34,433 bases of DNA from Acholeplasmatales bacterium (GTDB lineage: Bacteria > Bacillota_I > Bacilli_A > Izemoplasmatales > Izemoplasmataceae): positions 1 through 34,433 of the forward strand of contig RECF01000037.1 of assembly GCA_007694145.1 (NCBI GenBank), given 5' to 3'. Within the stretch, counting starts at the first letter, position 1. The number at the start of each line of letters is the position of its first letter. This document shows positions 23,103 through 28,660 of the stretch, piece by piece. Position numbers and translations under genes: made by a program. Under the pieces are notes generated by a model. The model was not told where the DNA came from, made no database searches, and saw only the letters and a program-made list of their open reading frames with translations.

Positions 23103-23272
23103 GTTAGCTCAACATAAAAAAATAGAGGTCGCGATGCAGATGAGTACCTGGTGGAGCCGGTAGGCTGTGAAACCAGAGAAAGGCAACCATCGCCGAATAT
23201 GTAGTCAGACATGAGTGCATATGGGCCAGCGGGGAACACCCGTTGGACTCCTACTTCGGTAGAGGCGCTAAC
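23103..23272 (+). ncRNA. Lysine riboswitch aptamer (L-box)
   Basis: The leader carries the conserved blocks of the L-box in order: AGAGGTCGCG (23124-23133), TGAGTA (23141-23146), TGTGAAA (23166-23172), GAAAGG (23178-23183) and GCCGAA (23192-23197). Helices fit too: CTGGT/ACCAG (P2), ATATG/CATAT (P3), CCAGCGGG/CCCGTTGG (P4) and CTAC-TTCG-GTAG (P5), followed by GGCGCTA. P1 is unusual: only TAG/CTA pair next to the core, while GTTAGC (23103-23108) can pair with GCTAAC (23267-23272). Lysine binding is expected to turn off the downstream ABC importer. Identification rests on recalled consensus, not on a covariance search. Confidence 0.87.
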
Positions 23273-23295
23273 ATACTCCCTAACTAGGTTGTTTT

Positions 23296-23343: not shown

Positions 23344-24141
23344 ATGAAAAAAATCTTTATGGTATGCTTTGTCACGCTGGCGGTCTTCCTGATTCAGGCT
23401 TGCGGTGTTGACGAAAACAGTCTGGTGGTCGGGATGGAGTGCGATTACGCACCATTCAACTGGACAACAAGCGATGACACCGCCGAACCGGTGTCAGGCA
23501 CGAACTATTATTGTGACGGTTATGATATGATGATTGCTCGGCAACTCGCTGCATCCCTTGGACGTGAGTTGGTGGTGCGTCAAGTGGCGTGGGAAGGCTT
23601 GATTCCCGCGTTGTTAAGTGGTGAAATCGACGTGATTATTGCAGGGATGAGTCCGACACCGGAGCGGGCTGAAACGGTCTTGTTCACCGATGCATACTAT
23701 GTTAGTGCGCAAGTGTTTGTTGTGCAGTCTGGCAGCACGTATGCGCAAGCGGAAACACTTGATGATTTCGCTGGTGCGCGCGTGATCGCTCAGCTAGGCA
23801 CCTTGCAAGACCGCTTGATTCCCCAAATCCCCGACGTGGTGCACCGGGGCGCTTTAGAAACCTATGCGAGTCTCGTCACTGAGGTGCTGAGTGGGGCTTC
23901 GGATGCCTTGATTGCAGAATGGCCTGTCGCTTTGAGCATTACTCAAACCAATCCATCACTGACTTGGGTCGATTTGGGGGAGGCGGGTTTCATACTTGAA
24001 GCAAGCGATGTGTCCGTGAGTATCGCTTTGCGGCAGGCGGATGTGGCTTTGCAAGTTGACATCAACGAGATTTTGGCAGCCATCAGTTTAGAGACCCGTC
24101 AAAGCTGGATGCAGGATGCACTTGAAAGACAAGGTGATTGA
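23344..24141 (+). CDS. Amino acid ABC transporter substrate-binding lipoprotein (probably lysine)
   Basis: A 265-residue periplasmic-binding-protein family 3 member, anchored outside the membrane as a lipoprotein: a basic start and hydrophobic stretch lead to the lipobox IQAC with C20 as the lipid-bearing residue. Family marks are VGMECDYAPFNW, the GYDMMIARQLAASLGREL segment, and GEIDVIIAGMSPTPERAETVLFTDAYY. The ATG at 23344 follows AAGGAGG. It is the first gene after a lysine riboswitch, so the importer most likely takes up lysine; the sequence alone would only say polar amino acid. The stop overlaps the region just before the permease gene. Confidence 0.9.
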   Translation: MKKIFMVCFVTLAVFLIQACGVDENSLVVGMECDYAPFNWTTSDDTAEPVSGTNYYCDGYDMMIARQLAASLGRELVVRQVAWEGLIPALLSGEIDVIIAGMSPTPERAETVLFTDAYYVSAQVFVVQSGSTYAQAETLDDFAGARVIAQLGTLQDRLIPQIPDVVHRGALETYASLVTEVLSGASDALIAEWPVALSITQTNPSLTWVDLGEAGFILEASDVSVSIALRQADVALQVDINEILAAISLETRQSWMQDALERQGD

Positions 24142-24146
24142 CAACG

Positions 24147-24890
24147 ATGACGGTCATGGCAACATCGTTTGGTGAACGGTTAGTAAACATGTTCATCGAC
24201 CATCACGATCTCCTGCTTTACGGCGTACGAAACACGTTGATTCTGGCCATTTTCGGAACGATTTTCGGGTTGCTGCTCGCCTTGGTGCTTGTCGTGTTTC
24301 GCCTAGGGGGATTTCAGGTGAGCAGTGGGTGGTTTCGCCACTTGCAAAAGCGGGTGTTGAAAATTGCAACCGCTTTATATATCGGCTTCTTTCGCGGTAC
24401 ACCGATGATGGTCCAGGCGATGATTTTGTACTATGGCTTGCAGACGGCAGGGGTTCGTATTCCGGTTTTGATGGCTGGTCTTGTCGTTGTCAGTCTCAAT
24501 ACTGCTGCGTATCTGACGGAGATACTCAAAGCCGGCATTCTTTCACTTGATGCTGGTCAGTCAGAGGCGGCGCTGTCACTTGGGCTTACGCCGGGGCAAA
24601 CCTATCGACGTGTCGTGTTTCCTCAAGCACTCCGGAATATGTTGCCAGCCATCGGCAATGAACTTGTTGTGAACATCAAAGATACAGCTGTACTCAGTGT
24701 CATCGGTGTATCGGAACTATTCTTTATGGGACGGCGGGTCGGCAGCGCTAGCTATCGGTTCACCGAAGCCTTTGTGCTTGTATCGATTCTCTATCTTGTA
24801 TTGGTCAATGCGGCCGTCTTTCTTCTGATGCGGTTGACACGGCATCGCAAATCATCGCTGCCAGTCAGTGATAGTGGGGTGCTCGTATGA
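24147..24890 (+). CDS. Amino acid ABC transporter permease (probably lysine)
   Basis: A 247-residue inner-membrane subunit of the HisMQ type with about five hydrophobic helices. FFRGTPMMVQAMILYYG near residue 80 and the EAA loop EAALSLGLTPGQTYRRVVFP near residue 145, which contacts the ATPase, are typical of polar amino acid importers. A single permease gene implies a homodimer. The ATG at 24147 is best supported by AAGGTG (24131-24136); the TTG at 24138 overlaps the previous stop codon and has no spacing to a ribosome binding site. Its last four bases overlap the ATPase gene. Confidence 0.9.
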   Translation: MTVMATSFGERLVNMFIDHHDLLLYGVRNTLILAIFGTIFGLLLALVLVVFRLGGFQVSSGWFRHLQKRVLKIATALYIGFFRGTPMMVQAMILYYGLQTAGVRIPVLMAGLVVVSLNTAAYLTEILKAGILSLDAGQSEAALSLGLTPGQTYRRVVFPQALRNMLPAIGNELVVNIKDTAVLSVIGVSELFFMGRRVGSASYRFTEAFVLVSILYLVLVNAAVFLLMRLTRHRKSSLPVSDSGVLV

Positions 24891-25621
24891 CGCTTGCCCT
24901 GATAAACTTGACGAAAGACTTTGGTGAAGGACCGATATTGCAAGATGTATCGGTTGTGTTCAATCCGGGTGAAATCACGTGCATCATCGGACCATCAGGT
25001 TCTGGTAAAAGCACGTTGCTTAGAATGCTCAATCGGCTTGAAGCACCGACACGTGGCCACATCATGGTTGATGGTGAACCGCTCAAAGAGACTGACAAAG
25101 CTTTGCAACGCCACCGGGCGCGTACCGGCATGGTCTTTCAAGCCTTTCATCTGTTCAATCACCTGAGTGTGCTTGACAACTGCATGTTAGCCCCTATTAC
25201 CGTCTTAAAACTGAACAAAACCGATGCCATGCAACGCGCCATGGGTGCACTCGAAGAAGTCGACATGGCTGGTTATGCCCACCGCCGGCCCATCACGTTG
25301 TCTGGTGGGCAGAAACAACGGGTTGCCATCGCACGCGCTTTGAGCATGACGCCTCAAGTTCTCTTGTTCGATGAACCGACCAGCGCGCTCGATCCGGAGA
25401 TGGTTCAAGAAGTACTCCAGGCGATGCGTCGTGTCGTCGCCAAGAAAATCACCATGATACTCGTCACACACGAAATGACCTTTGCGGCAGAAATTGCTGA
25501 CCGCATCCTATTTATGGATGAGGGGCAAATCATTGAAGATCGTCCTGGGCGCGCGTTGCTCGATGATCCGGAGCATCCGCGGACCCGACAATTTTTGAAA
25601 TCATGGCGAGGCAAGACATAA
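24887..25621 (+). CDS. Amino acid ABC transporter ATP-binding protein (probably lysine)
   Basis: A 244-residue ABC ATPase of the GlnQ/HisP group that powers the importer from the cytoplasm. It contains Walker A GPSGSGKST near residues 36-44, the Q-loop MVFQAFHLFNHLSVLDN, the signature LSGGQKQRVAIARAL, Walker B VLLFDEPTSALDPE, and the switch histidine in LVTHEM. The ATG at 24887 overlaps the permease stop (ATGA), so the two are coupled. The operon ends at a strong terminator shared with the convergent radical SAM gene. Confidence 0.94.
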   Translation: MTLALINLTKDFGEGPILQDVSVVFNPGEITCIIGPSGSGKSTLLRMLNRLEAPTRGHIMVDGEPLKETDKALQRHRARTGMVFQAFHLFNHLSVLDNCMLAPITVLKLNKTDAMQRAMGALEEVDMAGYAHRRPITLSGGQKQRVAIARALSMTPQVLLFDEPTSALDPEMVQEVLQAMRRVVAKKITMILVTHEMTFAAEIADRILFMDEGQIIEDRPGRALLDDPEHPRTRQFLKSWRGKT

Positions 25622-25678
25622 AAAAATGAAACCTTGTCCCGGATGCATCAAAGCATCGGTTGGACAAGGTTTTTTTTA
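25621..25678. terminator. Bidirectional terminator between the ABC operon and the radical SAM gene
   Basis: ACCTTGTCC (25631-25639) pairs with GGACAAGGT (25662-25670), with an inner GATGC/GCATC stem (25642-25646 and 25653-25657). Eight T residues follow on the plus strand; an A-run at 25621-25626 provides Us on the minus strand. The minus-strand stop codon TAA at 25676-25678 lies in the T-run. Confidence 0.85.
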
Positions 25679-26602
25679 GTGTTTGAGTCGATAACTCGTC
25701 AGACCTTTCATCGATGAAGCCCTGACGCGCGGGTCTTGATTTAATCGTTTAAGAATCCGTGTGGCATCGCTTTGCCGATGTTTCATAAATACTTCGATTT
25801 CATGTCGGTGCAAAGGATGGGTACGAATGATGTTCAAGATGGCCTCATAATCATCGGTAACTGCGCTTTGATAAACGCCTTCGGCCAACGCTTCAATCGA
25901 GATGCCTTCGAGCGCTTCAGCAAACATCATGACGCGCTTTAGCGGTGGAACCTGTGCGGACTTGTCCGTCCCTGCTCGAAGGGGGACATTGATGTATAGG
26001 CGATCATAGCGGATGCCTTTCAATGTTTGCTTGAAAGCACGCAAGGACTGTGCACTGTCATTAATATCCTTCAAAAGCATCACTTCAAGCCATAGTTCAC
26101 CATGAAATTCTTGTGAGAACTGCTTGAGATATACGGTGCTTGCTTTAAGATTAACGTGAGGATGTGGTCGGTGAATCGTTTCCGCAAGCGAGACAGGCTC
26201 AGACATCACAGTCGGCAAAACGATGTCAGCCTCAAGTGCGGCATCAAAGACATCGCGATGGTCAAAACGTGCACCATTCGTGATGAGGGTTACCGGTTTG
26301 TCAGTGCAAGTCTTTAAGCGGATAAGCAGCTTTTTCAAGTCACGGTACAACGTAGGTTCACCCAAACCAGACACTGTGACGGTGTCGTATGCGATGCCGC
26401 TCTTTAAGAAGGTGTTGAATGCGGCAATCAAGGTCTCAACAGCCACACCTTGTGCAGGTGTATTTGTCAAGGCAGCCGTCGGACCGAGTTGACAGTAGAG
26501 GCAGTCGAAGTTGCAATATTTTGTGATGAACGGACTGATGCCAAGTGATCGCCCTAAGCGTCTTGAGAGAACCGGACCATATAAATAAGCGCTGTCACGC
26601 AT
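25676..26602 (-). CDS. Radical SAM protein (COG0731-type)
   Basis: A 308-residue radical SAM enzyme with the cluster motif C30-x3-C34-x2-C37 (CNFDCLYCQLG) preceded by YGPVLSRRLGRSLGISP, the hallmark of the COG0731 group, which is related to wybutosine-type tRNA enzymes but of unknown function in bacteria. VSGLGEPTLY and ITNGARF correspond to the SAM-binding strands. A helical C-terminal extension of about 90 residues follows. The start is placed at ATG 26602, overlapping the GGDEF stop by eight bases; ATG 26611 is also possible, and neither has a clear Shine-Dalgarno. It is the third gene of the minus-strand operon with the cobalamin and GGDEF proteins. Confidence 0.82.
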   Translation of the reverse strand: MRDSAYLYGPVLSRRLGRSLGISPFITKYCNFDCLYCQLGPTAALTNTPAQGVAVETLIAAFNTFLKSGIAYDTVTVSGLGEPTLYRDLKKLLIRLKTCTDKPVTLITNGARFDHRDVFDAALEADIVLPTVMSEPVSLAETIHRPHPHVNLKASTVYLKQFSQEFHGELWLEVMLLKDINDSAQSLRAFKQTLKGIRYDRLYINVPLRAGTDKSAQVPPLKRVMMFAEALEGISIEALAEGVYQSAVTDDYEAILNIIRTHPLHRHEIEVFMKHRQSDATRILKRLNQDPRVRASSMKGLTSYRLKH

Positions 26603-27578
26603 GGAAATCATGCCGTTTTTTGTTGCGTAGGGCTTTATGGCGGTACATGCGTTCATCTGCCTGCATCATGGCTCTCTCTAAGTCGGCCAGCAGGCTGTTT
26701 CTTTCAAGCAAGCTGTCACCATAGGCAGCGGATAACGTGGCATCGAGCGTCACCAGGTGTTGATCAAGTGCCGTCATCCATGTTTTGAGATCGGGCATGT
26801 TCGTTTCAGGAATTGTCAAAGCAAACTCATCGCCACCGAGTCGATAAGCTTCCCCACCATAAGGTTGAATGTGTTCATCGATGTAGTGGGCAAAAGCTTT
26901 GAGAACCCTGTCTCCTTGATGGTGCCCGAGTCGGTCATTGATCGATTTGAAACCGTTCAAGTCAACCATGACCAAACGTTGGATGGTTTGCTTTGAACAG
27001 GCAATTACATCATGGAAAAAAGCGCGGCGATTTTTAAGTTGAGTCAGTTCATCACGCATGCTTGTCTCATGCAAGATATGGTTCAGTTTTTCCAACTCAC
27101 GATTTTTTTGGGCCAGCTCGCGCTGCGTATTGACCAATTCACTGTTTAGGGCAGTCCATTCACGTAAGTAGGCGGCGGTGGCTTCGTCATGGCTGTAGTG
27201 TTTGAAAGCCTGCGCCTGTCGTAAGCTGTTGAGCTGTTCGCTATTAATCCGAATGATTTCACTGAGGACCGTCAAGGTTTCTTGGCGTTCCTTGAGGCTA
27301 AGCATGACGATTTGTGTGCCAGTTTTGAGCAACGCGACCGATAAAATCAAATGGCCGTGTGTTTCGTTGAGAAGCAGTTCACCACCAAAACTGTGTCCGT
27401 GTTCAAGTGTATCTTTGAGATAATCAAGAAAGCGTTGAATCGAATCGGTATCCAAATAGTAGACAAAGTGTGTTCCAGCTTGAAATTGCGGATAAGAACC
27501 TTCATGTTTGACAGCCTCGACAATGCGCCCTTCAAGGTCGAGGACAAGGCCTAGTGTTGTCAGTTTAGAGTCCGACAA
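26595..27578 (-). CDS. GGDEF-domain protein, putative diguanylate cyclase
   Basis: The 327-residue protein has an N-terminal sensor-like alpha/beta region (residues 1-100, PAS-like in pattern), a helical coiled-coil linker (about 100-170), and a C-terminal GGDEF domain. Active-site residues for making cyclic di-GMP are present: D206 in VDLNGFKSIND, N214, D215 and G248-GDEF252. The RxxD inhibitory site before the motif is missing (P239 and G242 stand in its place), so product inhibition by that route is not expected. The start is a TTG at 27578, with AGGTAGG upstream, overlapping the stop of the cobalamin-binding protein by 14 bases; no other start codon lies near. The close coupling suggests the two proteins form one signalling unit. 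Confidence 0.88.
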   Translation of the reverse strand: MSDSKLTTLGLVLDLEGRIVEAVKHEGSYPQFQAGTHFVYYLDTDSIQRFLDYLKDTLEHGHSFGGELLLNETHGHLILSVALLKTGTQIVMLSLKERQETLTVLSEIIRINSEQLNSLRQAQAFKHYSHDEATAAYLREWTALNSELVNTQRELAQKNRELEKLNHILHETSMRDELTQLKNRRAFFHDVIACSKQTIQRLVMVDLNGFKSINDRLGHHQGDRVLKAFAHYIDEHIQPYGGEAYRLGGDEFALTIPETNMPDLKTWMTALDQHLVTLDATLSAAYGDSLLERNSLLADLERAMMQADERMYRHKALRNKKRHDFHA

Positions 27579-28566
27579 GATGACGACCTACCTCAAGTGC
27601 CGAGGCTGCATTTCGTGCATGGCCATCGGCTCCAAAACGATTGTACAAGCTCTCATCCCCTGAAAAAGCCTGCCCGCCAATGAGGATTTTCGGTGCCCCA
27701 CCCGGAAGGCGTTCTCGGAGTTTATCTAGCGTCTCTTGCAAGGCGCTCAGGTGCAAGGGCAGGGTGACACTCAAGCAAACAAGATCTGGTTGAAATGACT
27801 CAGCGAAACGAACGATTTCATCCGGAGGCATGTTCGCGCCAAGATAATGTGTCTGGAAACCGTCAAGTTCAAAAAAATCAGTGACCATCCGGATGCCGAT
27901 TTCATGCAGTTCAGTGCCAATGGCTGTAGACAGCAATTTCTTGCCGTGCTTTGGCGATGCAAAAATTTCTTCGTAGAAGTTTGCCATGATCGACTGCGTG
28001 ATAACGGTTGCGAGATGCTCATCCGCCACATGGATGGTTCCCGTTTGCCATAAACGACCGACTTCATAAAGACTCGGCTGCAAGATGTCAAGATAAATGT
28101 CTTTGAGCGATGACCCTGTTTCGCGCAACTTTAAAATGTGCGCACGCGCAGCGTGACGGTCTTTGTTCAGCACGTAACGCAAGTAAGTCGCCGTATCGGG
28201 CTTTGTCACATACGAGACGCCGTTCTCATCTACACTAAACGTATTTGGATCGATCGCATCAAGCAGCGTTCGTTGTTCTAAAGACAAATGCGGTGCAAGC
28301 CGTGTTTGAATCAACACGTACAGTTGACCCGCAACAGCCTTGTCGATGCCCGCGTGATGCAAAGCGACCGCCAACCATGAAAAGTACGCTTTGATTATCG
28401 AGGGTTTTTCATGTTTCAAGCCTTCCAAAGTAAAAAGCAGCGAATAGCGGATATCGCGCAAGGACTTTTCAATGTAGCGCGTAGAGCGGTCAAGATAATC
28501 AGGGACCATGTCGGCAAGAATCTGTTGAATGAGTGCGTCTTGGTTTTTTTCAATCGTGCCAAGCAT
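27565..28566 (-). CDS. Cobalamin-binding sensor-like protein (CarH-type B12 module, no DNA-binding domain)
   Basis: A 333-residue protein. Residues 1-110 are helical and not recognised. Residues 125-200 form the cap four-helix bundle of B12-binding proteins, with W173-x9-E183-H184 (WQTGTIHVADEH), the signature of B12 photoreceptors such as CarH and LitR. Residues 208-330 form the Rossmann-type B12 domain with E219-L-H221-x-x-G224 (lower axial histidine), SVTL at 266-269 and GGQ at 297-299. No MerR helix-turn-helix and no methyltransferase partner domain is present. The start ATG at 28566 follows GAGGTG. The gene leads an operon with a GGDEF and a radical SAM gene, so a cofactor- or light-dependent control of cyclic di-GMP is the most likely role; a redox or B12-level sensor is the alternative. 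Confidence 0.83.
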   Translation of the reverse strand: MLGTIEKNQDALIQQILADMVPDYLDRSTRYIEKSLRDIRYSLLFTLEGLKHEKPSIIKAYFSWLAVALHHAGIDKAVAGQLYVLIQTRLAPHLSLEQRTLLDAIDPNTFSVDENGVSYVTKPDTATYLRYVLNKDRHAARAHILKLRETGSSLKDIYLDILQPSLYEVGRLWQTGTIHVADEHLATVITQSIMANFYEEIFASPKHGKKLLSTAIGTELHEIGIRMVTDFFELDGFQTHYLGANMPPDEIVRFAESFQPDLVCLSVTLPLHLSALQETLDKLRERLPGGAPKILIGGQAFSGDESLYNRFGADGHARNAASALEVGRHLVGL

Positions 28567-28594
28567 ACCATCACCTCAGTGTCCATATATGATT

Positions 28595-28603
28595 ATTATA
28601 GCA
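28595..28603 (-). promoter_or_regulatory. Extended -10 promoter of the cobalamin/GGDEF operon
   Basis: On the minus strand TGC-TATAAT (TATAAT at 28595-28600) is a perfect extended -10. The -35 position (28618-28623, GTGTCG) is weak and lies in a palindrome. Confidence 0.7.
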
Positions 28604-28610
28604 AAATAGT

Positions 28611-28624
28611 CGTGTTTCGACACG
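28611..28624. repeat. Inverted repeat over the -35 of the cobalamin/GGDEF operon
   Basis: CGTGT-TTCG-ACACG (28611-28624) is a perfect 5-bp inverted repeat with a 4-base centre, sitting on the weak -35. It may be an operator; the binding protein is unknown. Confidence 0.45.
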
Positions 28625-28631
28625 CTGTATT

Positions 28632-28660
28632 AAAAAAGAACAAGCACCAGGGCTTGTTCT
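28632..28660 (-). terminator. Rho-independent terminator of plsY
   Basis: On the minus strand AGAACAAGC, loop CCTGGT, GCTTGTTCT (plus-strand arms 28637-28645 and 28652-28660) is followed by a U-run (A at 28632-28637). Its 5' arm overlaps the plsY stop codon. Confidence 0.87.

Follow-up and report, generated by a model that had tools for sequence, protein, structure and literature searches.

The window, which is the whole 34,433-nucleotide stretch of DNA analysed here, contains a gene for a B12-binding protein that overlaps a gene for a GGDEF protein. The question raised by this locus is whether the two genes form one signalling unit and, if so, what it senses and how its output is controlled. 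Three open reading frames had been predicted on the minus strand, and all of them were found in place. The B12-binding sensor of 333 aa is encoded at 27565..28566 (-) and the GGDEF partner of 327 aa at 26595..27578 (-). The partner gene starts with a TTG codon at 27578, with AGGTAGG just before it. The predicted 14-nt overlap of the two genes is correct, and both the overlap and the TTG start are kept in the nearest relative, Candidatus Izimaplasma CSBr16_137 (locus L057). The partner gene in turn overlaps a gene for a radical SAM protein with a CxxxCxxC motif (25676..26602 (-)). This second overlap held up as well, with another start codon. Instead of 26656 as listed, the start is more likely at 26602, which would give a protein of 308 aa and an overlap of 8 nt, the same as in that relative. 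An intrinsic terminator after plsY (28637..28660 (-)) separates plsY from the sensor gene, 5' of which lies a promoter-like site containing TATAAT (28592..28620 (-)), a consensus match found at chance frequency. A hairpin (25629..25672 (-), z -6.4) 3' of the radical SAM gene is a likely terminator common to the convergent genes. Because of the plsY terminator, the TATAAT-like box and the strong hairpin, the predicted single transcript of three genes is plausible. The three genes did not stand as a functional set, since the radical SAM gene adjoins the pair only within the same genus, and it was dropped as a third component. Elsewhere in the window, a lysine riboswitch at 23115-23278 (+) scored 60.9 bits and lies immediately 5' of three genes for an amino-acid ABC transporter (23344-25621).

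The cobalamin module of the sensor is complete. Pfam assigned B12-binding_2 to residues 128-195 (the helical cap) and B12-binding to residues 212-324 (the Rossmann part). The two predicted signatures, W173-x9-E183-H184 and E219-x-H221-x-x-G224, are both present, and the CarH-type adenosylcobalamin-binding domain at 27595..28185 (-) carries G170xxW173, E183-H184, H221 and G243xxxP247. As predicted, no MerR DNA-binding domain was found with Pfam, so the protein lacks this mark of the CarH/LitR transcription factors. The description as a CarH-type module was thus right for this domain and incomplete for the protein, of which residues 1-120 had gone unnoticed. They form a phycobiliprotein-like globin, called photoglobin (28213..28566 (-); residues 1-118, about 120, with D38 and W64). 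No Pfam model matched residues 1-120 of the window protein alone. When a profile of 46 homologous N-termini was compared with the PDB, the matches listed were phycobiliproteins and photocobilins, together with the engineered phycobiliprotein smURFP. The E-values were 7.5e-8 for the allophycocyanin-type ApcF, 9.4e-6 for the C-terminal domain of SasPcob and 8.2e-5 for AbPcob. The Pfam Phycobilisome family (PF00502) was matched individually by 28 of the 46 aligned N-termini with a best E of 2.5e-11, the window protein alone not being one of those that matched. A full-length sensor profile matched SasPcob over its two halves, with their order swapped. The AlphaFold2 model of the sensor alone was confident (pLDDT 94.4, pTM 0.90), and its globin domain is all-helical. 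In Foldseek, the cobalamin domain resembled known B12 domains, namely those of CtMerR, SasPcob and CarH. Because the domain order is swapped, Foldseek ranks the cobalamin domain only, and the identity of the globin rests on the profile evidence. On the photoglobin profile and Pfam matches, and on the alignment with SasPcob at D38 and W64, the window protein is judged from its sequence to be a free-standing photocobilin whose globin comes first.

The residues expected of such a sensor were compared among 73 homologues gathered with the pattern HE[IML]GxRM[IV]xD. Since H221, E222, G224, R226, M227 and D230 are part of this pattern, their invariance among the 73 is built in, and W173, E183, H184, W64 and D38 are the residues independent of it. 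In the deposited SasPcob chain, the residues aligned with D38 and W64 are 264 and 290, which correspond to Asp270 and Trp296 with a numbering offset of 6, checked on Trp61 (chain residue 55). Asp270 is the key biliverdin residue in SasPcob, and Trp296 touches both the corrin and the bilin (PMC10979010). D38 is conserved in 69 of the 73 homologues and W64 in all of them. The position of the chromophore cysteine of phycobiliproteins is Ser35 in the window protein and cysteine in 15/73 homologues; SasPcob also has no cysteine there and binds biliverdin non-covalently. The published signature of light-responsive cobalamin-binding domains consists of GxxW, EH, GxxH and GxxxP (PMC11796333). Three of these motifs, GxxW, EH and GxxxP, are present in 73/73 homologues. 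At the glycine of GxxH, the window protein has Thr218, and glycine is kept in 47/73. The W, E and H residues of the motif, including W173, E183 and H184, likewise do not vary among 17 relatives collected on whole-protein similarity. His132 of CarH, the second light-state ligand at the bis-His position, corresponds to Gln174 in the window sensor, and SasPcob likewise has glutamine.

The conservation of the gene pair in relatives had been set beforehand as a point on which the original prediction could fail. In a survey of 61 genomes drawn from the genus, family and order to which the window belongs, 18 photocobilin copies were collected besides that of the window, and a GGDEF gene is directly 3' of the photocobilin gene in all 18, mostly overlapping it. 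The chance of such an adjacency is estimated at about 1 per cent per copy from the 24 GGDEF domains in the genome. Among short B12-binding relatives without the globin, a GGDEF neighbour was found in 0/12. In one subgroup of the order, the partner has AGDEF or SGDEF instead of GGDEF (L046-L051, L053, L054, L056, L169 and L170), and most sensors of that subgroup have histidine after the conserved tryptophan. The pairing also spans phyla. A single scan covering 84,980 species genomes yielded 538 relatives, of which the best 80 loci were analysed. These come from Izemoplasmatales, Clostridia, Halanaerobium, Paenibacillus, Heliobacterium, Bacteroidota, Chloroflexota, Thermodesulfobacteriota, Thiotrichaceae, Spirochaetota, Methanolobus and Asgard archaea. 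A same-strand downstream gene is present in 79 of the 80 loci and nearly always encodes a signalling protein. The genes of photocobilin and partner overlap in 37 of the best 80 loci, and overlap or are separated by at most 20 nt in 67.

The partner is more than a cyclase. Its GGDEF catalytic domain (26628..27059 (-); Pfam and inspection) has the GGDEF motif and the metal and GTP residues intact, as predicted, and no RxxD I-site was seen by inspection of this domain. With an iterative profile seeded with the GGDEF partners of the order, the N-terminal region of about 130 residues was found to be common to 73 of 78 partners and to that of L116, and it was absent from the roughly 1,200 other open reading frames of those loci. 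In the window partner, this region covers residues ~5-135 (27174..27578 (-)) and is followed by a coiled coil and the GGDEF domain. The final labels placed the domain in 76/80 loci, with a histidine kinase behind it in 53, GGDEF in 18 and a truncated or unclassified output in 5. Two more histidine-kinase partners, L078 and L080, do not have the domain, which makes 55 histidine-kinase outputs against 18 GGDEF outputs across the 80 loci. The kinase identity was confirmed on representatives with Pfam HisKA and HATPase. The Paenibacillus partners (L077, L118 and L124) are about 700 aa long, and that of L077 was recognised in a domain scan as a hybrid kinase with HisKA, HATPase, receiver and Hpt behind the docking domain. 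In most relatives the partner is a histidine kinase, so the output of the system is not inherently c-di-GMP. The predicted signalling pair of B12 protein and cyclase is therefore upheld as a strongly conserved pair and not as one whose output is always c-di-GMP. The N-terminal domain matched no Pfam family, and its comparison with PDB sequences gave no convincing match. Its core is predicted to be PAS-like, with two strands, helices, three strands and a long helix (overall pLDDT of the partner model 75, core mostly >90). The fold search returned generic PAS domains, including PpsR N-Q-PAS1 and AppA-PpsR2. The conserved sequence of the domain is L-x-C-D-x-x-G-x-I ... INNEQxNxLR.

The partner domain and the photoglobin were also searched independently in 295 genomes of the phylum. 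Each was found in six genomes, four of which are common to both (P about 7e-7 for this co-occurrence), and all five credible matches of the partner domain in this sample adjoin a photocobilin. Weak matches in G177 (a ParA-like protein) and in G279 and G241 (photoglobin) were judged spurious. An orphan GGDEF protein with the docking domain was observed in a genome of the same family (G011, L148:5302-6267), and no photocobilin was detected in that 89% complete genome. In another genome, G193, the photocobilin and the partner are both broken by stop codons (L167:4162-5611), a case of joint decay.

The genome to which the window belongs is a 1.86 Mb assembly, 92.6% complete and close to Izemoplasmatales metagenome bins. 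Judging from these relatives, this is probably an anaerobe of sediment or brine. A PduO-type adenosyltransferase and the AdoCbl-dependent lysine 5,6-aminomutase are encoded in it. A photolyase gene (L156:1317-2699) is present in this anaerobe-like genome, on a contig shared with lysine 5,6-aminomutase and cobalamin adenosyltransferase genes. Five c-di-GMP-I riboswitches occur as two tandem arrays of two and three (G000:C46:2943-3131 and G000:C71:11664-11990). They precede genes for a type-IV-pilin-like protein and for two proteins that are probably exported, with GGDEF and GGDEF-EAL genes alongside. A PilZ effector was sought in this genome as well and none was found, and the riboswitches are the likeliest readout of c-di-GMP in it. 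No heme oxygenase was found in the 92.6% complete genome. Therefore, any bilin would need another source, or else the globin may be a coupler, as suggested for AbDPcob.

The two overlapping genes are probably a two-gene photocobilin switch, and other explanations of the locus have to be set against this. The sensor could be a B12 methyl-carrier, that is the corrinoid protein of a methyltransferase, or another metabolic cobalamin protein with a GGDEF gene as an incidental neighbour. NCBIfam corrinoid methyltransferase families did match the sensor weakly, but none passed the cut-off and CarH was the better match. Moreover, such a protein would not be expected from the globin domain or from the downstream signalling proteins with their common dedicated domain in nearly all of the 80 loci. 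A corrinoid methyltransferase protein was rejected on these three grounds, and a metabolic role of this kind is scarcely credible. The neighbourhood could also reflect nothing but inheritance and co-transcription, with two proteins that serve the same process without touching each other. The related loci do have a common ancestry. However, the N-terminal domain of the partner is kept across at least three switches of output type on the photocobilin tree. The same domain is absent from the other nearby genes and occurs once in the own genome despite its 24 GGDEF domains, and the joint breakage of both genes in G193 points in the same direction. An arrangement without contact is therefore decidedly unlikely.

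What the pair responds to is a separate matter. It could sense the availability of AdoCbl, so that the AdoCbl-bound and apo forms set the activity of the partner and any light sensitivity is incidental. The AdoCbl enzyme and the adenosyltransferase of the organism, together with its probable anaerobic life in sediment or brine, agree with this explanation, as does the report that AdoCbl binding alone lowers the activity of AbDPcob (PMC10979010). On the other hand, no variation was seen in the Trp and Glu-His residues, which cap the adenosyl group and are the mark of photoreceptor cobalamin domains, and a phycobiliprotein-type globin is fused to the cobalamin domain in the whole family. The presence of a photolyase gene suggests a cell for which exposure to light is of consequence, and no cobalamin riboswitch was found within the window. 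Sensing of AdoCbl availability in place of light is thus rather unlikely. The best reading of the window pair is a light- or B12-controlled cyclase that works through a separate sensor protein.

For this two-gene switch we infer cobalamin binding, possible bilin binding, a light response, protein contact and the sign of the effect, and the following mechanism is proposed. The sensor would bind adenosylcobalamin in the base-off/His-on mode through H221, with W173 and E183-H184 above the adenosyl group. Green light would break the Co-C bond and move the E-H helix, which lies at the dimer interface. Placed beside the corrin, the photoglobin may hold a bilin or be a structural coupler only. By direct contact with the N-terminal PAS-like domain of its co-translated partner, the sensor would hand on its state, and the coiled coil of the partner would then set the geometry and activity of the GGDEF dimer. 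Light or AdoCbl status would then change c-di-GMP, which may act on the five riboswitches in the own genome. The same kind of sensor and docking domain would, in other lineages, drive a histidine kinase and hence a phosphorelay. In broader terms, we lean towards a widespread 'split photocobilin' system, in which a light sensor using B12, and perhaps bilin, would act through a PAS-like docking domain on interchangeable outputs, c-di-GMP or phosphorelay, in non-photosynthetic anaerobes, in many bacterial phyla and in Asgard archaea. The conserved unit suggests a role for free-standing photocobilins. Because natural co-encoded partners exist in many genomes and a candidate docking domain is at hand, this role is directly testable. 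A further implication is that c-di-GMP and phosphorelays may be under light or B12 control in lineages where photosensing has been little considered, and the modular parts of the pair could be applied in optogenetics.

Schneider et al. reportedly described in 2022 the photoglobin family as non-heme globins associated both with B12-binding domains and with signalling genes. The cobalamin-binding module, its fold match and its W, E-H and H residues are shared with CarH and CtMerR, whereas the window sensor has no DNA-binding domain and its output is a separate protein. AerR, a B12 antirepressor, resembles the window sensor in being a free B12-binding photoreceptor whose target is a separate protein, the PAS protein CrtJ/PpsR (PMC5362033). 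The two systems differ in output, which is DNA binding there and a cyclase or kinase here, and no sequence relation of the partner domain to CrtJ/PpsR was detected. There is also a close likeness to the photocobilins SasPcob and AbDPcob of Zhang et al. 2024, in which a photoglobin is joined to a CarH-type AdoCbl domain with the Trp, Glu-His and lower His residues, the Asp and Trp of the bilin site and a connection to a diguanylate cyclase (PMC10979010). Both domain orders and a photocobilin-cyclase fusion are already published (PMC10979010). The order of SasPcob is reversed relative to the window sensor, where the globin is N-terminal. The cyclase of AbDPcob is fused to the photocobilin, whereas that of the window is encoded by a separate overlapping gene and has its own PAS-like docking domain. 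No description of such a two-gene unit, with a dedicated partner domain and an exchangeable output, was found in the literature searched. In AbDPcob, AdoCbl lowers the turnover of the cyclase and light raises it more than 10-fold. Photocobilins in isolated form also affect the activity of a cyclase in trans through protein contact (PMC10979010). That work called it 'less clear' what standalone photocobilins do, and tried SasPcob on the cyclase of another organism (PMC10979010). The window pair would be a natural arrangement for this in trans case of photocobilin and cyclase.
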